In this document: positions 9,931-24,531 of the stretch, one piece after another
Layout of the letters: every line of letters starts with the position of its first letter
Position numbering within the stretch: position 1 is the first letter of the stretch
DNA from: a virus
Virus record (IMG/VR): IMGVR_UViG_3300032282_003034
Span: 1-24,531 of that record
Strand: one strand, 5' to 3'
Length of the DNA stretch: 24,531 nt
Translations under genes and position numbers: made by a program
Notes under the pieces: model-generated
What the model was told of the DNA's origin: nothing
The model's input: only the letters and a program-made list of their open reading frames with translations
Databases searched by the model: none

Positions 9931-9960
9931 AAAAAGGGAACCATTTGGTTCCCTTTTTTT
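9931..9960. terminator. bidirectional intrinsic terminator
   Basis: AAAAAGGGAACC (9931-9942) pairs perfectly with GGTTCCCTTTTT (9947-9958) around ATTT. Rightward it ends in seven Ts (9954-9960); leftward its A run (9931-9935) becomes Us. It separates gp32 from the convergent late operon, whose last stop codon overlaps it. Confidence 0.9.
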
Positions 9961-12900
9961 ATGCTGCCATATCAAATAGTAATGCATATCGTTGAGCAGC
10001 ATCTGGTGGTTCAACATTACCTGGATTACCCATACTAATAGGATAAGAAGTATCTCCAACACCAGGAGATGAAGTCCCAGAGCTTGGTACATCAGGTGTT
10101 GGTGCAGATGGTGTCATAGGAGTTCGTTTAGCCACTTCATTATCAACTGATGCTGTTGCTACAGTAGGTCCAGAGCTTGGTGCTGATGGTGTCATTGATG
10201 CTGGTTGATCTCCACCACCAGGAGTCATTTCACCACCACCTGATGTAGTACTTGCAACCGGTGTTGCTGTTTCACCACCACCATCTGTTGATTCACCGCC
10301 TGATGCAGTTGCTGTCATTGGTGTTGCAGATACTTGAGATGCTTGTTGTGCACCATCGGTACTTGTATCGGGCGGTGCAGATCGGCCACCTATTCTTTCT
10401 ACGTGAACAGGATCATTAGGAAATGGTCTATGTAGACCATATTTCCTTAATAATCCCATTGAATCCATTTCCTCTAAAGCATTTCTAGTAACATCTAGTG
10501 CCCTTGCAGAAGAAGATGATCCCCCATGTGATGATTTTGTTCTACCACCGGGTACATTAAATGTTTGACCTTTATAATTTATAGTTGTATCTTTGTCTGG
10601 CTTTGCTGGCATATAAATGCCAGGTTCTTTAAATATTCTTCCTCTAACCCAAAGTTCGGCTTGTTTTTCATCACTACGAAAACCTGAATTAATTTTTACA
10701 GGTTTACCATATTCTTTAGCCGCAGCATAAAAACCACCTAATAAATCTTTATCTACTTTTGAAATATCTACACCAGAATCAATTGTTACATTTTCTGGTT
10801 TTTCAGATGTACCACCTTGAGATTGTGATTGATCTTGCCCCTGTTGTGTAGAAGTATCAGAGCCAGAACCAAATGAAGGCATTGTTGGTGGTCTCATACC
10901 ACCACTAACGTTAGCAAATGAAACTGGTGATGCTAATCCGCCAGAAGAACTCATACTACCACCAGCTAGATTTGGTGTTACTGCCGCACCTTGACCAGAT
11001 ACATTCATAATTGTATTCATAAAATCTGATAATTCTTCCTTGATAGCATCCAAGAAAGGTGCTTCCATCTTATCAGATTTAAAAACAATATCTCTAGCAG
11101 TAATGGTTAAACTGTCTGATGTATCCCCAGAAGATCGTCTTCTTGTTCTTTTAGGTCTAGCCATTGGTCTGGAAGTTGGTTCTGACCCTGCTTCTTGCCA
11201 ACCAGTATCGGTAGATTCTGCTTCTTGCCAACCAGTATCTGTTGTATCATCCATATAAGTTTGTGATACAGGACTTAATAAATCTTTATCTACTGGTTCA
11301 GCATCACTTACAGGTGTTTCCGACTGTTGTGGTGTTACAACTGGATTAGAGTTTGCAACCGAAGGAGAACTTAATAATTCTTCATCTATTATTTGATTTC
11401 TTAATTCTGCTTTTTCCGCAGGTAATAATTTACGACTTAATGCTTCTTCTTCTTCTTTTAGCTTTTGTTGATAGATTTCATCAACTTTTTTAGTAAATTC
11501 AGGAGAAAATTGATCAACTCTAGGTTTATTAGATTTTCTTTCAAATGCACCCGATATAGATTTACTTACTAATTCATCTCTTTTTTGCACTTCTGCATCT
11601 GGTGTTGCAGGAGCAACTGCTTGTTTTGGTGGAATATATATAGATTCTTTACTAGCTCTTCTTTCTGCATTAGCTATAGCTTCAGATTGTGCAGAACCAC
11701 CAGAACCTGGATTTAATAAAGCTAATTCTTCAGTTTTATATTTTTGTAGTAATTGTCCGTATAGTTGTTCTTTATTATCAGTTATAATATTAGCACTAGC
11801 AGGTGTTGCTTGTGGTGTTGCTGATACTGATGTTGTATTTACCTGAGGCACTGGAGTTACATTAGCACTAGCAGGTATTTGTGGTGTTGGTACAATATTA
11901 GCACTAGCAGGTGTTGCTTGTGGTGTTGCTGATACTGATGTTGTATTTACCTGAGGCACTGGAGTTACATTAGTACTAGCAGGTATTTGTGGTGTTGGTA
12001 CAATATTAGCACTAGCAGGTGTTGCTTGTGGTGTTTCTGTAATTGAAGGTATTGGTGTAATACCAGCATTCTTTCCAGTTGTATCAACAATTGCAAAATC
12101 TTTAGGGGGTTCTTTTTCTAATTCTTTTTCTAAATCGCTATATTGTTTATTAAATTCTTTTAATTTAGTTTCATCAGTTTGATTTCTTTTACTAAAAACT
12201 TCTTCTGCTTGTTTTTGAATATCATTTGTAGAAACACCACGAGCATTGTTTAAAATACGACGAACATTAGAATATTCATCTCTTGCAGATGAATATTCTT
12301 CAATTATATTTTTTTGTAAAATTTTTCTTTTTTGATCTATTGTTTCATAATATTTTAAATCTGATTCTAATTTAGCAAGTATACCCAATGTTTGTGTATC
12401 AGCTGGTCTTCTTTTTTCAAAAGAAATTTGTTTTTCTGTTGTAATTTTTTTAGATGCAATTTTATCTGAAAGTTTATCATTTTCATCAAGTTTTATTAAT
12501 AAATCATTATATTCAGATAATGTCTTTTTAATCTTTTCCTCAATAGTATTTGAATCAGATGGCGTTATTATTTGGCTTGCTGTTTGCTGTGATGCTGGTT
12601 GTGATATTATTGATGATACTGATGGTCTTGCAGGTGATGGAGTAGATACAGATGCTGTTTGATTTTGTTGTAAAAATTGAATAACATTCATAGCGGTGCT
12701 AGAAGCACTTACAAAACTACTATAATCTTGTTGAGGTATTACATTTGAAGATACTGGTGTAATATTATTAGCAGGTGTAACAGGTACCTGAGGCACTGGT
12801 GTTACATTAGCACTAGCAGGTATTGCATCTGGTGTTGCAGGTACATTAGCACTAGCAGGTATTGCATCTGGTGTTGCTGATACTGATGTTGTATTTACCT

Positions 12901-15118
12901 GAGGCACTGGTGTTACATTAGCACTAGCAGGTATTGCATCTGGTGTTGAAGTGATACTAGCAGGTGTTGCTTGTGGTGTTGCTGGTGCTTGAGGTGGTGT
13001 GACAGGATTGGCTAATAACTTTTCAAGATCATTCATAGAATCTTGTTGTTCTGACCCACGTCGTTCTGATACTGCTACTGGTGCTGCTGCTGGTGCTGGT
13101 GCTGGTGTTGAAGTGATACTAGCAGGTGTTGCTTGTGGTGTTGCTGATACTGATGTTGTATTTACCTGAGGCACTGGAGTTACATTAGCACTAGCAGGTG
13201 TTGCATCTGGAGTTACATTAGCACTAGCAGGTGTTACAGGTACATTAGCACTAGCAGGTATTGCATCTGGTGTTACAGGTACATTAGCACTAGCAGGTGT
13301 TACAGGTACATTAGCACTAGCAGGTATTGCATCTGGTGTTGCAGGCACATTAGCACTAGCAGGTATTGCATCTGGTGTTGCAGGTACAATATTAGCACTA
13401 GCAGGTGTTACATGTACATTAGCACTAGCAGGTATTGCATCTGGTGTTACAGGTACATTAGCACTAGCAGGTGTTACATGTACATTAGCACTAGCAGGTA
13501 CTTGTGGTGTTGGTACAATATTAGCACTAGCAGGTGTTACAGGTACATTAGCACTAGCAGGTGTTACATGTACATTAGCACTAGCAGGTGTTGCTTGTGG
13601 TACTGGAGTTACATTAGCACTAGCAGGTGTTGCTTGTGGTACTGGAGTTACATTAGCACTAGCAGGTGTTGCATCTGGAGTTACATTAGCACTAGCAGGT
13701 GTTGCAGGTACTTGACTTGCATCTGGTGTTGAAGTTTGTCCTCTTCTTTCACGTGCTTTTTTAAATGCTTCTTCATTTTCTCTTATTAAATCATTTAATA
13801 TATTTTTAGCGCCACGTGCTTGTGTTCTATTTGTTAAATCAATTTGATCTTTATCAGAAATAATTTCAAGAATTTCTATAATTTTTGGATCTAATGATTG
13901 TCTAAAATTATTATCTTTTAGTAATTTTTGTATATCTTCCTGATCTTTTACAGTCATATCTCTTGGATTTGGCGGTCTTGGAGGACTTTCACCCATAAGT
14001 GCCGCAGCTATTGTTGCACCCATCCATGAACCTACTTCACTACCAGCAAATGCACCAGCAACACCGCCTATAATACCGAAAACAAGTGCGCCAACGCCTG
14101 CAATTGGTGCCCCAAGTGCAGCGCCTACAGTACCTAATGCTGCTGCTCCTGCTGCTGATCCAAAGAAAGATCCAAAAGCAGCACCATATCTTTGTTTATA
14201 TGTATTTGAATCTATTTCATTTATAGAATATTCATATTCAATTTGATCAAGTTCTGATATTAATTGCAAACCTTCAATTGCAGTAAATACAACACCCAAT
14301 CCAGCAGCTGCAAATCTAGATGATGTTAAACCACGACTTCTTGCAGGTCTATTAGTTGCTCTAGGTGTCTCTGGTGTTGCTGCAGGTCTAGGTGTTTGTC
14401 TTACTTCTGGAACACTGCCTCTTCTTTGTGGTCTATTATTACTGCGTCTTCTTTCTAAATCAATATCTGGAGAATTATCAGTATTATCTTCTTGTTGTGC
14501 TTGATTTTCCAAATGATCATTAATATTTTTTAATAATTCATTATGTCTTTTTATATTTTGTTCTATATCTGATAATAAACTTGCTGATTTCTCAAGAGCT
14601 TTGCTTGTTTCCTCATTTATTGTTTTTAATTGAGAAAATTTCAAACCGCTTTGTTGGGTAGATATATAATTGTCTATTTTTTTTATTGAATCAATTACAA
14701 ATTTTGGTATGTCTTTTTCTAAAATGGAACTTGCTGAAATAGATGAAGCAGATATGGGTTTTGATTTTTGTTCTGATATTTCTTGTGGTTCTTGTTTAGT
14801 TATACTTGAAATTTGAATAGGTGATGCTGTAACGCTAGCATCATTCTGTGTAATATTATTTTTTATAGAACCAAGAAGTTTACTTGTTTCAGATTGGCTA
14901 TTCAAAATATTAGTCATATTAATATTATTATTTTGAATCGATCTGTATTCAGTTGATTTTATATTAGCATATTCTGATAAAAATCTTTTTTCTTTTTGAT
15001 CTCTACCACTCATAGTATCAAGAAGTTTATTCAAAATTGGTGCAGCAAAAGATAAATCTGATCTTGCTGCATTTTTTGTTGATGCTTTATCTTCTTTTTT
15101 TACTATCGGAAGAACCAT
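9959..15118 (-). CDS. 1719-aa mosaic protein: glycine zipper, TPASANV repeats, M15-type peptidase
   Basis: Start ATG at 15118-15116, 3 bases after the muramidase stop. Order: (1) residues 1-215 charged, coiled-coil-like; (2) ~266-374 hydrophobic Gly/Ala-rich with GxxxG zippers (GAAFGSFFGSAAGAAALG, GAFAGSEVGSWMG), able to enter a membrane; (3) ~471-651 TPASANV repeats, with further blocks at ~719-779 and ~1029-1109; (4) ~856-1006 coiled coil; (5) a tandem TDTGWQEA pair near 1295; (6) ~1443-1579 an M15/VanY-type zinc peptidase: INSGFRS, SSHGG with His1531, ALDV with Asp1542, and DPVHVE with His1572; (7) a Gly/Ser/Thr/Pro-rich tail ending RYALLFDMAA. It is the last gene of the late operon, after holin and muramidase. 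A virion-borne wall-penetrating or tail-needle-like protein is likely; a tape-measure or lysis role is possible. The H-to-D spacing is 11, longer than the usual 7, so activity is uncertain. Confidence 0.8.
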   Translation of the reverse strand: MVLPIVKKEDKASTKNAARSDLSFAAPILNKLLDTMSGRDQKEKRFLSEYANIKSTEYRSIQNNNINMTNILNSQSETSKLLGSIKNNITQNDASVTASPIQISSITKQEPQEISEQKSKPISASSISASSILEKDIPKFVIDSIKKIDNYISTQQSGLKFSQLKTINEETSKALEKSASLLSDIEQNIKRHNELLKNINDHLENQAQQEDNTDNSPDIDLERRRSNNRPQRRGSVPEVRQTPRPAATPETPRATNRPARSRGLTSSRFAAAGLGVVFTAIEGLQLISELDQIEYEYSINEIDSNTYKQRYGAAFGSFFGSAAGAAALGTVGAALGAPIAGVGALVFGIIGGVAGAFAGSEVGSWMGATIAAALMGESPPRPPNPRDMTVKDQEDIQKLLKDNNFRQSLDPKIIEILEIISDKDQIDLTNRTQARGAKNILNDLIRENEEAFKKARERRGQTSTPDASQVPATPASANVTPDATPASANVTPVPQATPASANVTPVPQATPASANVHVTPASANVPVTPASANIVPTPQVPASANVHVTPASANVPVTPDAIPASANVHVTPASANIVPATPDAIPASANVPATPDAIPASANVPVTPASANVPVTPDAIPASANVPVTPASANVTPDATPASANVTPVPQVNTTSVSATPQATPASITSTPAPAPAAAPVAVSERRGSEQQDSMNDLEKLLANPVTPPQAPATPQATPASITSTPDAIPASANVTPVPQVNTTSVSATPDAIPASANVPATPDAIPASANVTPVPQVPVTPANNITPVSSNVIPQQDYSSFVSASSTAMNVIQFLQQNQTASVSTPSPARPSVSSIISQPASQQTASQIITPSDSNTIEEKIKKTLSEYNDLLIKLDENDKLSDKIASKKITTEKQISFEKRRPADTQTLGILAKLESDLKYYETIDQKRKILQKNIIEEYSSARDEYSNVRRILNNARGVSTNDIQKQAEEVFSKRNQTDETKLKEFNKQYSDLEKELEKEPPKDFAIVDTTGKNAGITPIPSITETPQATPASANIVPTPQIPASTNVTPVPQVNTTSVSATPQATPASANIVPTPQIPASANVTPVPQVNTTSVSATPQATPASANIITDNKEQLYGQLLQKYKTEELALLNPGSGGSAQSEAIANAERRASKESIYIPPKQAVAPATPDAEVQKRDELVSKSISGAFERKSNKPRVDQFSPEFTKKVDEIYQQKLKEEEEALSRKLLPAEKAELRNQIIDEELLSSPSVANSNPVVTPQQSETPVSDAEPVDKDLLSPVSQTYMDDTTDTGWQEAESTDTGWQEAGSEPTSRPMARPKRTRRRSSGDTSDSLTITARDIVFKSDKMEAPFLDAIKEELSDFMNTIMNVSGQGAAVTPNLAGGSMSSSGGLASPVSFANVSGGMRPPTMPSFGSGSDTSTQQGQDQSQSQGGTSEKPENVTIDSGVDISKVDKDLLGGFYAAAKEYGKPVKINSGFRSDEKQAELWVRGRIFKEPGIYMPAKPDKDTTINYKGQTFNVPGGRTKSSHGGSSSSARALDVTRNALEEMDSMGLLRKYGLHRPFPNDPVHVERIGGRSAPPDTSTDGAQQASQVSATPMTATASGGESTDGGGETATPVASTTSGGGEMTPGGGDQPASMTPSAPSSGPTVATASVDNEVAKRTPMTPSAPTPDVPSSGTSSPGVGDTSYPISMGNPGNVEPPDAAQRYALLFDMAA
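13165..13710 (-). repeat. tandem-like TPASANV coding repeats (main block)
   Basis: About 16 copies of an 18-base unit (ACATTAGCACTAGCAGGT on the plus strand), spaced by 3 to 24 bases, encode P-A-S-A-N-V/I. Spacer peptides are shuffled from few types (PVTP, PDAI, TPVPQ, HVTP, IVPTPQ). Smaller blocks lie at about 12780-12960 and 11785-12030. The whole gene has roughly two dozen ASAN copies. Near-identity of DNA copies suggests recent expansion by unequal recombination or slippage. Confidence 0.9.
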
Positions 15119-15121
15119 TGT

Positions 15122-16408
15122 TTATGCCTGTAAATTTTGAAGTCTGATATTAATAGGTACTTCACCAACTTGTGGTGCTGAAGATGGAGCAGTTGGCTGT
15201 TGTATTGGTCCTGGTGTTGGTCCTGCCAATGAACTAATTTGTTGTCCAACACCACGCATTTGTGCTTGATCTGCTGCTTCAGTTGTTGCACCAGCTTGTG
15301 ATAGTTGTGGACCTGTGCCAGGAGTACCAGGAACTTGTTGTGCTTGTTGAGATGTATCTCCACCGCCACCACGAATCATTCCTACAATTGTAGGACCACG
15401 ATTACCTACTTGTTTAAACCATGCACTATTTTGCATTTCATTCGCAAATGTTTGCACGTCACCTTTAGCTAAAGCAGCAGATGCGGCAGGAAATTTTCTA
15501 TACCAAGCAGGACCCATATTAAAAGTTAAATCAATAACCGCAGCTTGACCACTAGAATTTAATTTTTCAAAACCTGGTATACGCTGTGCCGCTGCTTTAT
15601 GTTCTGCAAAGTCTTTAGCAAATAATTGATCTATTTCTTGTGGCGAGAATTTTTTATTCCATTCTGGTGGTAATGTTGGTCCTATCATATGACCAACACC
15701 TACAGTCCATAACCCAACAGAATCTTTATATGGTGTATATCTAACATCTTCGTGTTTCTTAATCATCGCCATAACAGATGCATCGTCACCAGACGGCATT
15801 TGTACTTCACCACCACCCAAACCCGTATTTTGTTGAGGATTCATTTGACCACCAGAAGTCATTCCTGATGCTGCTACTGGTGTAGCGCTTGGCATTTGTG
15901 GTGCTGTTGATCTGACAATATATCCACCGCCGGGTTGACTAATGCCGCCGGTTGCCTGACCTGAAAAATTATCTTGTTGTCCGCCGCTGGCTGTTCTTCC
16001 TGATCCACCTGAAGATAATGTTTGAACTGCTGATTGTAAAGCACCAAAACCAGAAGGCATTGCTGGCATTTGAGGCGCTGATGTTGCAGCAGATGCGGCA
16101 TTTGAATCTGATGATTGAATAGCTGGACTTGAAATATTACTAGTTAAACCACCAGCAGATTGTATATTAGATCTTTTAATATTTCCAAGTAAATCAGATA
16201 ATGTAAAATCTAGTTCATCTACATCAAAAACTAAATTTTGACTTATTAATTCTATTTCTGAAAATACTTTCTTTGATAGAAAAGCAGTCATCATATTTGA
16301 TTCTGCAATTCTTTCTGCATCTTTATCAACAATTGAATTGGCGACTTGAGAAGCCATATACTCCGCTAGACTTAACTTATCAATGTCGCCAACTTGTCCT
16401 TCTAACAT
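15122..16408 (-). CDS. GH24 muramidase with long low-complexity flanks
   Basis: 428 residues. Residues 1-85 are charged and helical; 85-205 are Gly/Ser/Pro/Gln-rich; 211-347 form a T4-lysozyme-type (GH24) domain with catalytic triad Glu220, Asp229, Thr235 in KHEDVRYTPYKDSVGLWTVG, spacing 9 and 6 as in T4 lysozyme, and later INMGP-type LTFNMGP. The C-terminus is Pro/Gln-rich and ends PINIRLQNLQA. The domain cuts the peptidoglycan glycan chain. No signal peptide. The gene overlaps the holin-like gene by one base and precedes the giant M15 protein. It could be the endolysin or, given the extra N-terminal region and setting among baseplate genes, a structural lysin for entry; T4 carries its tail lysozyme in gp5, which here has none. 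Confidence 0.85.
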   Translation of the reverse strand: MLEGQVGDIDKLSLAEYMASQVANSIVDKDAERIAESNMMTAFLSKKVFSEIELISQNLVFDVDELDFTLSDLLGNIKRSNIQSAGGLTSNISSPAIQSSDSNAASAATSAPQMPAMPSGFGALQSAVQTLSSGGSGRTASGGQQDNFSGQATGGISQPGGGYIVRSTAPQMPSATPVAASGMTSGGQMNPQQNTGLGGGEVQMPSGDDASVMAMIKKHEDVRYTPYKDSVGLWTVGVGHMIGPTLPPEWNKKFSPQEIDQLFAKDFAEHKAAAQRIPGFEKLNSSGQAAVIDLTFNMGPAWYRKFPAASAALAKGDVQTFANEMQNSAWFKQVGNRGPTIVGMIRGGGGDTSQQAQQVPGTPGTGPQLSQAGATTEAADQAQMRGVGQQISSLAGPTPGPIQQPTAPSSAPQVGEVPINIRLQNLQA

Positions 16409-16863
16409 TATCTAGAACTCATACCTTGTATTTTTTCTTGCCCACGAGACCAAGCGGCAACACCAAGAATAGCACCAAATGCCATATGGATAAGACCACC
16501 ATTACTTAATGTTAAACTAACCCAAGCAGTATAAGTCATATTAAAACCAAATGCTTTACCTAATACTGGTAAAAACATTGTAATTAATGGAAATATAATG
16601 AAATCAAAAGCACAGATAACCATATAGAGCCAACCCATAGCTGGTCTCCAATAGGTTCTCACCCATGATTCTTCTTGTTTCTTTATATTATACTCTGCAT
16701 TTAATTTATCTATTTCAGCAGAAGTAACAGTTTTTTGTTGACTATTACTTGAAGTATTGGTATAATTAGATTGAGGAAGAGAGGATGATATATTAGTCCT
16801 CTGATCATTGGTATCTGGTAATGGGTCTGGTCCATTATCATCGTCTGTAGGTCTAGCTGGCAT
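16408..16863 (-). CDS. holin-like membrane protein, 151 aa
   Basis: A hydrophilic Asn/Ser-rich N-terminus (1-55) is followed by WVRTYWRPAMGWLYMVICAF and three hydrophobic stretches at about residues 70-95, 98-112 (amphipathic) and 122-140, then a basic tail (SRGQEKIQG). The RPxxGWxY start and three-helix layout resemble the GTA-type 3-TM holins (PF11351-like) that I recall for alphaproteobacterial phages and gene-transfer agents. Holins form pores that release the endolysin. The adjacent, one-base-overlapping muramidase gene supports a lysis module. The gp51 frame overlaps its start by 11 bases. A different three-helix membrane protein cannot be excluded. Confidence 0.7.
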   Translation of the reverse strand: MPARPTDDDNGPDPLPDTNDQRTNISSSLPQSNYTNTSSNSQQKTVTSAEIDKLNAEYNIKKQEESWVRTYWRPAMGWLYMVICAFDFIIFPLITMFLPVLGKAFGFNMTYTAWVSLTLSNGGLIHMAFGAILGVAAWSRGQEKIQGMSSR

Positions 16864-17038
16864 GTCTGTTCCGTTGCTCCTCTAACTCTTTAAGGAATTG
16901 CAGCAACATTTCAACAAACATATCACGCTCGAATGGTATTAAATTTTCAATATCTGCAACTGAGTATTTATGATGCTGAATCATTGCAAACATAGAGATA
17001 TAATAATTCTCTAATGTGTTGTGATTCAGCCCAATGTA
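16853..17038 (-). CDS. 51: gp51-like baseplate hub assembly segment, reached by -1 frameshift
   Basis: From codon TAC (17038-17036) to TAG (16855-16853) this frame reads 61 residues, YIGLNHNTLENYYISMF..., with QHHKYSVADIENLIPFERDM, matching the small gp51-type ORF I recall in marine T4-like phages (HxYSixDlExmiPFERDxY). No good start exists: the first ATG (16993) cuts into the NTLENYY stretch and there is no ribosome site upstream. The frame is joined to gp26 at a T7 run (17044-17038). It ends 11 bases inside the holin gene. gp51 helps assemble the baseplate hub in T4. An independent 46-residue product from ATG 16993 is the alternative. Confidence 0.65.
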   Translation of the reverse strand, partial: YIGLNHNTLENYYISMFAMIQHHKYSVADIENLIPFERDMFVEMLLQFLKELEEQRNRHAS

Positions 17039-17730
17039 AAAAAATCGGTTAGGCTTGTCAGTTCAATGACTCTATCCTTTCCATTGGAATTTTTATATTC
17101 AAGTTTATAATAAAGTTTAGGTACATTAGTCATAAACTTTTGAATTTCATTGAATACAGCAATACCACAATCATCAAGGAATTTTTCTAGATCTTCCTTA
17201 CTGTAATCAGTTGCTTGATATACATTATCTGAATCATAGATCTTATCAATACAACGAAGTACTAGTTCATAGTAAGCATCATCTCCTGCACGAAAATATG
17301 TACGATCATCAAAGATTGATGCTGATGGATATCTCATTACAATACCCATATCATCACTAATTTTTATAATTGATTCTACATTCTCTGGGAATTTTACTTC
17401 TATACTTGATAGATCAATTACAAAATCATAAACTTTTTGATCATCATTATCTCTATATGAGACTTTTACGGTATTATCAACTGAAATAGATCTTAACTTT
17501 AGAAAAAGATATTCAAGATCAAATAGAGTCAATTTATCTACATCAAAATTATCAATAGCACAGTTATTGACAACTTGCTTTATGGCTCTGAGGATGTCAG
17601 CACGATCCTCAGAGCTTTTTGCCATGAGTAGTATTTTTTCTTCTTTTACCAAGAATGGTCTAAATTTTGTTACAATCTTGATAGATGGTACTGTAAATTC
17701 AAAGATCGGATGTTGTATTTTAGGTAGCAT
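17026..17730 (-). CDS. 26: gp26-like baseplate hub assembly protein
   Basis: 234 residues (T4 gp26: 208). The pattern PSIKIVTKFRPFLVKEEKILLMA in the first 40 residues, then the NCAIDNFDVDKLTLFDLEYLFLKLRSIS stretch, is the signature of the T4 gp26/gp51-type baseplate family (PF12322-like). It acts in the cytoplasm during hub assembly. AGGA-type site upstream of ATG 17730. Its last codons GAT TTT TTT hold a slippery run; a -1 shift there would add the gp51-like 61 residues, giving a protein of about 292 residues. The normal C-terminus is TDFFTLG. Confidence 0.85.
   Translation of the reverse strand: MLPKIQHPIFEFTVPSIKIVTKFRPFLVKEEKILLMAKSSEDRADILRAIKQVVNNCAIDNFDVDKLTLFDLEYLFLKLRSISVDNTVKVSYRDNDDQKVYDFVIDLSSIEVKFPENVESIIKISDDMGIVMRYPSASIFDDRTYFRAGDDAYYELVLRCIDKIYDSDNVYQATDYSKEDLEKFLDDCGIAVFNEIQKFMTNVPKLYYKLEYKNSNGKDRVIELTSLTDFFTLG
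17037..17044 (-). promoter_or_regulatory. putative -1 ribosomal frameshift site
   Basis: On the minus strand the gp26 frame reads GAT TTT TTT ACA. The heptamer T TTT TTT (17044-17038) lets both Phe tRNAs slip back one base, after which translation continues TAC ATT GGG CTG into the gp51 frame. Zero-frame translation stops three codons later (TGA 17028-17026). No clear downstream pseudoknot or upstream Shine-Dalgarno stimulator is seen. Confidence 0.6.
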
Positions 17731-17798: not shown

Positions 17799-18458
17799 TT
17801 ATTCATTCTGAACAGTACCCACCTGTGGTGGTGTTACAGTGCCCGCCTGTGGTGGTGTTACAGTAATAGCATTCTGTAAGTTTGCTTTTTGTAAGTTTAA
17901 ACTATACCATTCTGTAAATGCAAATTCAACTTGAACTCTTGTTGCATCATTATTTTCGCTCCATCCAAGAGGGATAGGGCTTAATGATATAGGAAATACC
18001 TCGTGTATATGATAAACATTTGATATTTTATCCTCATTATCACTATAATGGTTAATTATCATTTCTGCTATATAAGTATTTTTATATCTAGTTAAATAAG
18101 TTGGGGCTTCAGAAAAAGATCTTACATTATGAAAATTTACTATTAAGTTTATCCATTTTGTCATTAAATCTCTTATTGAACTGTCATTTCTTTCAATAAA
18201 AGTTATTGAAATTGCATCTTCATAATAAGCTCGGTTTGCAAATTTTTCTTTTACACCTATACCATAACGATTTATTGGTTGTGTTTCAATTGAAACACCT
18301 GGAACTATTACAGATTGAGCTCTAAACATAAGTTCTTGAAATAAATTATTGTTGTCTTTAAGTATGTCCGGGTATACTATCTGAACATCAAATTTATTGT
18401 TTTTAAGAATACCAGTTTTATTTATTATACTTGAAAAGTTTGATATATTAAAAGGCAT
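17799..18458 (-). CDS. gp19-like tail-tube family protein
   Basis: 219 residues. The region from LMFRAQSVIVPGVSIETQPINRYG to ISITFIERNDSSIRDLMTKWINLI and the HIHEVFPISLSPIPLGWSENNDATRVQVEFAFTEWYS pattern near the C-terminus resemble the T4 gp19 tail-tube fold (recalled PF06841-type pattern). T4 gp19 makes the tube; tube-like folds also occur in gp48 and gp54. Located between gp4/18458 and gp26, away from a sheath gene, so it may be a paralogue used at the baseplate rather than the major tube protein. It ends in VTPPQAGTVTPPQVGTVQNE, a short tandem Thr/Pro tail. The start overlaps the upstream stop (TAATG). Confidence 0.6.
   Translation of the reverse strand: MPFNISNFSSIINKTGILKNNKFDVQIVYPDILKDNNNLFQELMFRAQSVIVPGVSIETQPINRYGIGVKEKFANRAYYEDAISITFIERNDSSIRDLMTKWINLIVNFHNVRSFSEAPTYLTRYKNTYIAEMIINHYSDNEDKISNVYHIHEVFPISLSPIPLGWSENNDATRVQVEFAFTEWYSLNLQKANLQNAITVTPPQAGTVTPPQVGTVQNE
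17815..17860 (-). repeat. two-copy tandem repeat in the gp19-like C-terminus
   Basis: CCTGTGGTGGTGTTACAGT-type unit occurs twice with a 24-base period on the plus strand, encoding TVTPPQ(A/V)G twice. The Thr-Pro-Pro-Gln peptide also appears in the giant mosaic protein of the same operon. Confidence 0.6.
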
Positions 18459-19513: not shown

Positions 19514-19521
19514 TATAAATA
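19514..19521 (+). promoter_or_regulatory. T4-type late promoter, rightward
   Basis: Perfect TATAAATA. Predicted start near 19527-19528, giving a leader of about 23 bases before the gp48/54 gene, which has a TAGGGA site (19538-19543). It drives the 19551-24531 baseplate operon. Confidence 0.75.
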
Positions 19522-19531
19522 TAATAAAATT

Positions 19532-19539
19532 TATTTATA
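19532..19539 (-). promoter_or_regulatory. T4-type late promoter, leftward
   Basis: TATTTATA on the plus strand reads TATAAATA on the minus strand. Predicted start near 19525, about 22 bases before gp4. The two divergent late promoters lie 10 bases apart and their start regions overlap each other. Confidence 0.7.
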
Positions 19540-22617: not shown

Positions 22618-24183
22618 ATGAGTGAAAGCAGATCATTAGGTCAACCAGTTGGTTGGTGGGTTGGAATTGTTACTAATGTAATGGACCCACATCGTTCTGG
22701 TAGAGTTCAAGTTCGTGTTTTTGGTCGGCATGATGATAAAATTAATATCCCTGATCAACATCTACCATGGGCTCAGGTCATGCAGTCTGCTACATCTGCG
22801 GCACTTGGTAGAATAGGTACTGCGCCGGTTGGTCTTGTAGTAGGATCACGTGTGGTTGGTATGTGGGCCGATCATGATTATCAATATCCAATTATTCAAG
22901 GCACGATTGGTAAAGCAGGCGATGCAAAATCTGGAAGTACTTCAGGTGGTGCACCAGAAATTGATATTACTGTAGGCAGTATTCCTGCAGCATCTCAACA
23001 ATCAGTTTCTAATCCTTATAGTGTATTAAATCCTAACAGAATTTCTATAGATCAAATTGATGGCGGACAAGAACAGGGTCTAGTTGATAGTGTTAAAGTT
23101 GATGATGGCATTGTAATGACTAAACAAGTAGAAGAAGGTATGTATTATGCTGATGTACCTACTATTGCTTCTGCTGAAAAAGGCACAGAAGAAGATGTTT
23201 TACAAATTTTTAGAAAAGTAGATCCACAAGGTAAAATTTCTGTTCTTCCTTGCTTACCGTTTAATGCATTACAGATTAATATTCAATTAGACTTAACAAG
23301 TCTAATTAGTGGCATTGTTGGTATAGTTGCTAATGCCATCAGAAATGCAATTCTAGAATTAGCAAGAAAACTTGGTATTCAAAAAATATTAGCAGCATTG
23401 AATGAAGCTGCTTATGCTATTAATAGTGTTAGAAAACTAATAGATGCATTAGCAAGAACACAAATTTGTGGTATTAGTGTATTAAATAATGGTACTGCTG
23501 CATCAGCTGATTTAGCTCTAGCACAAGCTGTGAGTAGTATCAATGGCATCACAGGTTATACTAGAGGCGCATTGAATTATGTTAAATCATCTTCATTAGA
23601 TCGTGATATTACAGGTATATTAAATATTCCATTAGCTAGAGTACCTGTAGTTTCATTCTCACCTCTTGGTGGTGTTCAAGTAGAACCTCCTATTGGTTAT
23701 ATACAAGAATATTATTCTTACAATAATGATCCATATCCTGGTTACATACGTTGGGTTGATCCAATGAATATTGGTAACCCTATCTATACTCTTAGAAATG
23801 GTCAACCTAATTTTGGTTCTGCACAACAACATACTCAATATGCAACACAACAAGCATTAGTAACTTCACTTGGTTCTGAATTTGTAAAAGGTTCTATTTC
23901 TGGACCTGGTTTGGTTAGTGCAATTCAAGGATCAATGAATTTTGCAAAAGCATTTGGCGCTGCCAAAGCAATGGGAAATGGTTATAGTATTGGTTCACTT
24001 ATTAGTATGGCTGCTAGTTTGATTCCTTTATTAGTACAAGGCGTATCATCTGTATTAAATCCTAAAGTATCTGTATCTATAGTTGGCGATAAGGGTGCTT
24101 TTAATTCATTAGGTAGAGATTTTATGCAGAAACAAGCTATGATGTCTAGAAGATCACAGCTTCTATTTGTTGGAGTGACTTAA
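22618..24183 (+). CDS. 5: gp5-type baseplate hub protein, OB-fold, no lysozyme
   Basis: 521 residues. Residues 1-105 (PVGWWVGIVTNVMDPHRSGRVQVRVFGRHDDKINIPDQHLPWAQVM and GLVVGSRVVGMWADHDYQYPIIQGTIG) are the gp5/VgrG OB-fold. The rest (~105-521) has no lysozyme motif; it includes an amphipathic stretch around residues 225-275 (QINIQLDLTSLISGIVGIVAN) and a Gly-rich C-terminus. T4 gp5 has OB-fold, lysozyme and beta-helical needle in one chain; here lysozyme and needle are elsewhere. Ribosome site GGGGA lies about ten bases upstream. The spike gene starts at the next base after the stop. Confidence 0.85.
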   Translation: MSESRSLGQPVGWWVGIVTNVMDPHRSGRVQVRVFGRHDDKINIPDQHLPWAQVMQSATSAALGRIGTAPVGLVVGSRVVGMWADHDYQYPIIQGTIGKAGDAKSGSTSGGAPEIDITVGSIPAASQQSVSNPYSVLNPNRISIDQIDGGQEQGLVDSVKVDDGIVMTKQVEEGMYYADVPTIASAEKGTEEDVLQIFRKVDPQGKISVLPCLPFNALQINIQLDLTSLISGIVGIVANAIRNAILELARKLGIQKILAALNEAAYAINSVRKLIDALARTQICGISVLNNGTAASADLALAQAVSSINGITGYTRGALNYVKSSSLDRDITGILNIPLARVPVVSFSPLGGVQVEPPIGYIQEYYSYNNDPYPGYIRWVDPMNIGNPIYTLRNGQPNFGSAQQHTQYATQQALVTSLGSEFVKGSISGPGLVSAIQGSMNFAKAFGAAKAMGNGYSIGSLISMAASLIPLLVQGVSSVLNPKVSVSIVGDKGAFNSLGRDFMQKQAMMSRRSQLLFVGVT

Positions 24184-24184
24184 T

Positions 24185-24531
24185 ATGTCGGATGATCCAG
24201 AAAATAGAAGACACCCTGAATCAAAATTTGATACTGATTATCCTTATAATCAAGCTACAATGACAAGGGGTGGTCATGAATTTCATATTAATGATGCACC
24301 AGGTAAAGAAAGTTTAAAAGTTGGACATACTAAAGGTACATATGTTGAACTAGAAAGTGATGGTGGATGGAAACAGACTGTTCAAGGAAAAACAAGTCTA
24401 TATCATAAAGATGGTGTAACTCTTACATCGGATGGGCAAGTTGATTTTAAAATTGCTGGTAATTATTCACTAAATGTAAATAATTCAGTTTATGAAGCAA
24501 TGGCTGGTTATAAAGTACTTGGCATCAAAGG
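24185..24531 (+). CDS. baseplate spike/needle protein (partial)
   Basis: Starts MSDDPENRRHPESKFDTDYP one base after the gp5 stop and runs off the window after 115 codons. The part seen has ATMTRGGHEFHINDAPGKES, then VGHTKGTYVELESDGGWKQTVQGKTSLYHKDGVTLTSDGQVDFKI, a repeating short-strand pattern of a beta-helical needle with GHE.H.ND.PG.E at the start, as in gp5C/VgrG-like spikes. It should form the membrane-piercing tip below the hub. In T4 this is the C-terminal domain of gp5; a separate gene is the difference. Confidence 0.7.
   Translation, partial: MSDDPENRRHPESKFDTDYPYNQATMTRGGHEFHINDAPGKESLKVGHTKGTYVELESDGGWKQTVQGKTSLYHKDGVTLTSDGQVDFKIAGNYSLNVNNSVYEAMAGYKVLGIK

Follow-up and report, generated by a model that had tools for sequence, protein, structure and literature searches.

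A 1719-residue mosaic protein as a probable tape-measure/tail-lysin protein of a T4-like phage

What might a protein of 1719 residues, assembled from very different parts and encoded at the end of a late operon, do for a T4-like phage? The window (the whole stretch of DNA analysed here, 24,531 nucleotides long) holds such a gene, and a preliminary description had named in its product coiled coils, a glycine zipper, TPASANV repeats and a C-terminal M15 peptidase, suggesting a virion-borne device for penetrating the cell envelope. The reading frame is real, since the minus strand is open across 1719 codons at 9959-15118 on translation, and it carries the repeats, the glycine zipper and the M15-type domain; a plus-strand reading of the same interval was rejected because of its many stops. 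Except for residues ~668-1081, the sequence agrees at 99.95% with the independent contigs L001 and L002. Both contigs end within the repeats, which is why this interval is uncovered by them, and the repeat number in it rests on a single assembly. An assembly chimera is unlikely, with both ends and the middle module of the giant backed by L001, L002, L004 and L007.

The genes and signals around the giant that matter for its interpretation are as follows.

9959-15118, minus strand: giant gene, 1719 aa, second of a pair (open reading frame; homologues at the same position in other phages)
15122-16408, minus strand: partner protein, 428 aa, with a phage_lysozyme domain (domain search, E=8e-14)
16408-16863, minus strand: TM protein, 151 aa, GTA_holin_3TM family (domain search, E=3e-6)
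16853-16993, minus strand: gp51-like hub-assembly chaperone, 46 aa (unlisted short ORF, found by translation)
17026-17730, minus strand: gp26/T4_baseplate-family hub chaperone (PF12322 E=7e-55, phrog_150)
19514-19539, divergent: T4-type late promoter box pair (TATAAATA) between two tail operons
22618-24183, plus strand: gp5 OB-domain protein (domain search)

The minus-strand operon runs in the order gp4, gp2, a tail-tube-like protein, gp26, gp51, the GTA-holin-family TM protein, the phage_lysozyme protein and the giant, which is its last gene, as previously described; the plus-strand operon comprises gp48, gp53, a tail protein and gp5. The giant is under a T4-type late promoter common to tail genes. 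Homologues of the 151-aa TM protein are found in the equivalent position in L032, L035, L036 and L039, and this protein may be hub-related rather than a holin. In other T4-likes the small TM proteins encoded between gp51 and the large genes that follow are unrelated to it, and an EF-hand-like motif is present in some of them (phiM7, Melnitz, L078, L055). No lysozyme domain was detected in the gp5 OB ORF or in the second gp5-type ORF that follows it; gp5 is apparently split into these two, the second starting at 24185 and cut by the contig end (window positions 22618-24529 for both). The tail-tube paralogue (phrog_45) lies at 17799-18458, between gp2 and gp26, an arrangement also seen in phiM7. 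At 1075-2100 there is a protein with an apparent signal peptide that resembles periplasmic solute-binding proteins (phrog_6856, no Pfam match) and is possibly a host-derived metabolic gene.

Within the giant, the following parts can be delimited.

14474-14731, minus strand: predicted helical/heptad region, residues 130-215 (heptad test)
13730-14332, minus strand: conserved zipper module, residues 263-463 (comparison with relatives)
13979-14218, minus strand: glycine-zipper hydrophobic segment, residues 301-380 (9 GxxxG; phrog_1047)
12779-13705, minus strand: main TPASANV-type repeat block, residues 472-780 (motif count and DNA repeats)
12119-12559, minus strand: unique stretch, residues 854-1000 (32% identity with the L007 giant)
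11783-12031, minus strand: second repeat block, residues 1030-1112 (108-bp unit, 98% alike)
11369-11776, minus strand: conserved charged module, residues 1115-1250 (in every full relative)
10388-10786, minus strand: M15-type peptidase domain, residues 1445-1577 (H1531, D1542, D1569xxH1572xE1574)
9962-10024, minus strand: conserved C-terminal peptide VEPxDAAxRYxxLFxMAA, residues 1699-1719 (relatives)

The coiled coils survive in part: a crude heptad test supported residues ~130-215 (4/300 shuffles) and gave no coiled-coil support for the other stretches of the giant. The glycine zipper was borne out as a dense hydrophobic segment at residues 301-380, where nine of the ten GxxxG motifs of the protein fall; the 19-residue windows with a Kyte-Doolittle value above 1.6 nearly all start at 327-344, with one at 269. 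This segment matches the PHROG tail-associated lysin family phrog_1047 (E=1.4e-8), and the relative L003 matches the tape-measure family phrog_794 (E=7.5e-8), mostly over the zipper. In the T6SS effector Tde1, membrane passage depends on a glycine zipper, and the region holding it is related to the zipper region of phage tape-measure protein (TMP) C-termini (PMC10240207).

The repeat blocks were readily confirmed, since a motif count found PASAN 23 times and PASANV 18 times, against at most one PASAN per sequence in 1000 composition-preserving shuffles of the giant. At the DNA level they form arrays with periods of 36, 39, 63, 66, 90 and 108 bp, some of them 98-100% alike. The relatives L003 (1290 aa) and L005 (1299 aa) share 72-76% identity with the giant over the segments that are best conserved, and there are two PASAN copies in L003 and L005 and none in L006 and L007. 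The repeats are thus nearly absent from close relatives and not needed for basic function, and we rejected the idea that they are essential parts. They are best interpreted as a spacer of recent amplification, and to judge from these sequences the growth of the giant by proline-rich repeat amplification would be lineage-specific. Other loci differ in other modules: L029/L030 have PPVAPEVQAR repeats of their own and an M23 domain instead of M15, and in place of the 428-aa partner L007 has a 1303-aa SLT protein and L029 a 1313-aa protein. In L007 and L029 it is the first of the two paired proteins, instead of the second, that contains the zipper module, indicating that modules move between adjacent genes.

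The C-terminal peptidase requires a more qualified statement. By itself the giant is sub-threshold in Pfam (Peptidase_M15_3 E=0.025, VanY E=0.04), reaching 15.1 bits vs the curated M15 threshold of 23.2, and single-sequence phmmer against the PDB returned no M15 match for its domain, nor for that of L034. However, the M15 domain of L034 is 50% identical to that of the giant and has the canonical SxHxxGxAxD, and a 12-sequence profile, which includes other M15-like domains from the same gene position and is linked to M15 mainly through L034, matches the solved M15 enzymes YodJ (E=1e-4) and phage L-Ala-D-Glu peptidase 2vo9 (E=5e-4). The giant keeps H1531 and D1542 of the SxHxxGxAxD zinc motif, with a four-residue insertion in the HxxGxAxD loop that is also conserved in L003, L006 and L007. 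The second metal/catalytic motif, (D/E)xxHx(E), is present as D1569PVH1572VE1574 (DYPHFE in 2vo9). With this support from the profile and L034, we call the domain M15-type rather than a confirmed M15 family member, and peptidase activity is likely but, given the conserved loop insertion, unproven.

The place after gp26-gp51 (hereafter the slot) is occupied by one or two large proteins in S-PM2, P-HM2, S-SSM5, P-RSM4, S-H25, S-H34, S-CRM01 and S-CREM2, where these cyanophage proteins are annotated as endolysin, peptidase, chitinase or hypothetical, and by one large zipper protein each in phiM7 (Sinorhizobium), Melnitz and pf16; S-CRM01, the Caulobacter phage Cr30 and L032 likewise have a single slot protein. 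Counterparts of the giant, whose homologues the preliminary description had proposed to seek, were thus found in many T4-likes. Of the metagenomic gp26 loci, 74 extend far enough downstream; 57 of these have a gp51-like motif and 65 a protein of at least 330 aa within the next four ORFs. Large proteins that carry a zipper and exchangeable wall hydrolases fill the slot in T4-likes of cyanobacteria, Sinorhizobium, Caulobacter and Methylophilales. The enzymes seen at the slot are M15, M23, SLT, lysozyme, GH19 and the tail lysozyme PF18013. The S-PM2 protein p209 (L008 9880-13383) has, besides a phage tail lysozyme domain, an ADP-ribosyltransferase match near its N-terminus (PF01129 E=1.3e-5). The slot proteins of L032, L035 and L039 and the giant (1335-1365) share in their C-terminal halves a short strand-like motif (such as LTFNADSIIFNAK or LTITARDIVFKSDK), which precedes the enzyme part in slot proteins having one.

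In T4 the operon downstream of gp51 includes gp29, the tape measure, and the slot protein of Cr30 is annotated as a tail tape measure protein. The giant was previously described as not a standard T4 gene, which is right for the sequence: phmmer detected no similarity to T4 gp29, the giant does not match phrog_1283 (the one family that gp29 matches), the giant itself matched no tape-measure family in PHROG, and tblastn against isolate phages returned only low-complexity repeat matches and weak M15 matches. It is not right for the gene position, which is the usual tape-measure/tail-lysin site. The giant lies in the tail/hub operon directly after the chaperones gp26 and gp51, an order common to many phages, and, as expected of a tape measure, it is long and has a hydrophobic segment and a conserved C-terminal peptide. 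This peptide is retained even in L032, a 998-aa single slot protein, and we propose by analogy that it is a hub-docking helix, since in the myophage A-1(L) a stretch of ~20 residues at the C-terminus of the TMP docks to the central spike (PMC10966104). The metagenomic slot protein of L034 matches the tape-measure family phrog_9570 (E=4.7e-36).

Direct information on the virion comes from S-CREM2, where mass spectrometry of CsCl-purified virions detected both slot proteins, gp208 (73 unique peptides) and gp209 (71 unique peptides); the authors filed both under lysis (endolysins) and suggested encapsidation (PMC10665884). Judging from these relatives, the giant is expected in the virion as well. 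Tails measure 418 nm in S-CREM2, 129 nm in S-H34 and 140-170 nm in S-CRM01 (PMC10665884), and the slot proteins have 1565+1456, 936+735 and 864 aa, respectively. For these three cyanophages the trend fits a ruler without strict proportion; simple proportionality was rejected, as neither a single length nor the sum scales strictly with the tail. Both S-CREM2 slot proteins (L020 6484-11181 and 11185-15555) have independent low-complexity expansions, of the NNSTTSNTSS and FQQSMGSVAPAGG types. The very long hypothetical virion proteins gp124 and gp130 of S-CREM2 are low in helix-forming residues, and gp124 (2668 aa), which is encoded among baseplate genes, was rejected as the real tape measure.

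Taken together, the giant is probably a tail-lumen tape-measure/tail-lysin virion protein, one of a pair at the post-gp26-gp51 position. Pointing to this are the slot position, the virion detection in S-CREM2, the gp5 lacking a detectable lysozyme domain, the L034 protein that joins a phrog_9570 match to a domain so like the giant's, the resemblance of the C-terminal peptide to the spike-docked TMP end of A-1(L), the late promoter, the hydrolase swaps at the slot, and the dissimilarity of S-CREM2 gp124 and gp130 to tape measures. Weighing against it are the missing gp29 similarity, PASAN repeats that should not form a helical ruler, the loose scaling of slot length with tail length, the M15 loop insertion, the adjoining holin-family gene, the labels given by the S-CREM2 authors, and the window being a partial genome, so that another tape-measure gene could lie elsewhere.

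Three other readings use the same evidence differently. It is unlikely, though the best of the three, that the giant is a virion enzyme sitting on the baseplate hub while another protein measures the tail: the slot is dominated by hydrolases, it often holds two proteins of which just one need be the ruler, and the wall-cutting domains of A-1(L) are located in the hub (PMC10966104), but the sole slot protein of S-CRM01, Cr30 or L032 would then need both roles, L034 has its tape-measure match, and no other tape-measure candidate was seen within the window, a partial genome. Somewhat less likely still is an end-of-cycle lysis cassette of holin, lysozyme and M15 endopeptidase, to which the adjacency of the GTA_holin_3TM protein to the phage_lysozyme protein and the M15 domain, and the endolysin label in S-CREM2 (PMC10665884), would lend themselves. 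A 1719-aa giant departs from endolysins, which are normally small. The canonical case is a small soluble lysin with a holin partner that is absent from the virion; a holin-like neighbour is present here, but the size, zipper and repeats of the giant and the finding of both S-CREM2 slot proteins in purified virions do not agree with it. Further, slot proteins lie downstream of hub chaperones and, as no lysozyme domain was detected in gp5, they are what the window offers as entry enzymes. It is very improbable that the giant is an ejection protein carried inside the capsid along with the DNA, in the manner of podovirus internal virion proteins: the partner's lysozyme does match phrog_2083 (internal virion lysozyme motif), and encapsidation was suggested for S-CREM2 (PMC10665884), but the gene sits in a baseplate-hub operon, L034 matches a tape-measure family, and the C-terminal peptide is conserved as in tube-docked TMPs.

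If the giant is a tape-measure/tail-lysin protein, gp26 and gp51 would bring it, together with the partner that carries the lysozyme, to the baseplate hub, where the giant's conserved C-terminal peptide would dock while the remainder extends up the tube. Upon sheath contraction the giant would be expelled first; its M15 domain would cut the peptide part of peptidoglycan and the partner's lysozyme the glycan part, the glycine-zipper segment would enter the inner membrane and help DNA through, and the proline-rich repeats would be a variable-length spacer, perhaps affecting tail length or reach. The suggested virion-borne penetration device draws its support from the slot position, the S-CREM2 virions and the gp5 result, whereas ejection, membrane insertion, enzyme activity and a length role of the repeats are what we infer. 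It is a tentative and rather doubtful extension that in this phage group the tape measure consists of two proteins, its length and enzymes evolving by repeat amplification and by moves of modules (zipper, M15, M23, SLT, lysozyme) between adjacent genes, with repeat number tuning penetration reach or the length of the tail.

In a 2020 survey of pelagimyophages the authors reported that the tape measure protein had escaped identification (PMC7029224). One tape-measure position, after gp26-gp51, is now indicated by the order of genes, the conserved C-terminus and virion proteomics from the literature; these data also suggest that the tail lysozyme of these phages was transferred from gp5 to tape-measure proteins. 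The old ruler question could be put to natural variants, since some close relatives have the repeats and others lack them.

Among known systems, S-CREM2 gp208/gp209 (OR473000, PMC10665884), which were found in virions, are like the giant and its partner a tandem pair of wall hydrolases directly after gp26-gp51, and at ~1500 aa share an N-terminal helical part, a hydrophobic Gly-rich segment and long low-complexity repeats; they differ in having other repeats and GH19 plus lysozyme, with no M15 by Pfam and no close sequence similarity. The Cr30 tail tape measure protein (AGS81138.1) also follows gp26-gp51 and a small TM protein, and its Gly-zipper matches phrog_1047, but it has 562 aa, no enzyme domain found and no such repeats. 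The cyanophage P-HM2 peptidase PHM2_022 (T4-GC 573) combines, in the equivalent position, a zipper-like segment with a VanY/M15 domain, but in 610 aa and without repeat blocks. T4 gp29 is likewise a late tail gene product encoded downstream of gp51, with a Pro-rich linker and one hydrophobic segment, yet it has 590 aa, no enzyme and no detectable sequence similarity. Finally, tape measure proteins with muralytic domains and tail-associated lysins fuse a wall hydrolase into a long tail-lumen protein as the giant appears to do, but here this is found in a T4-like phage and split over two proteins with swapped modules. The tape-measure/tail-lysin kind is already known; what is new is a mosaic form divided over a pair of proteins, with repeat expansions particular to the lineage.
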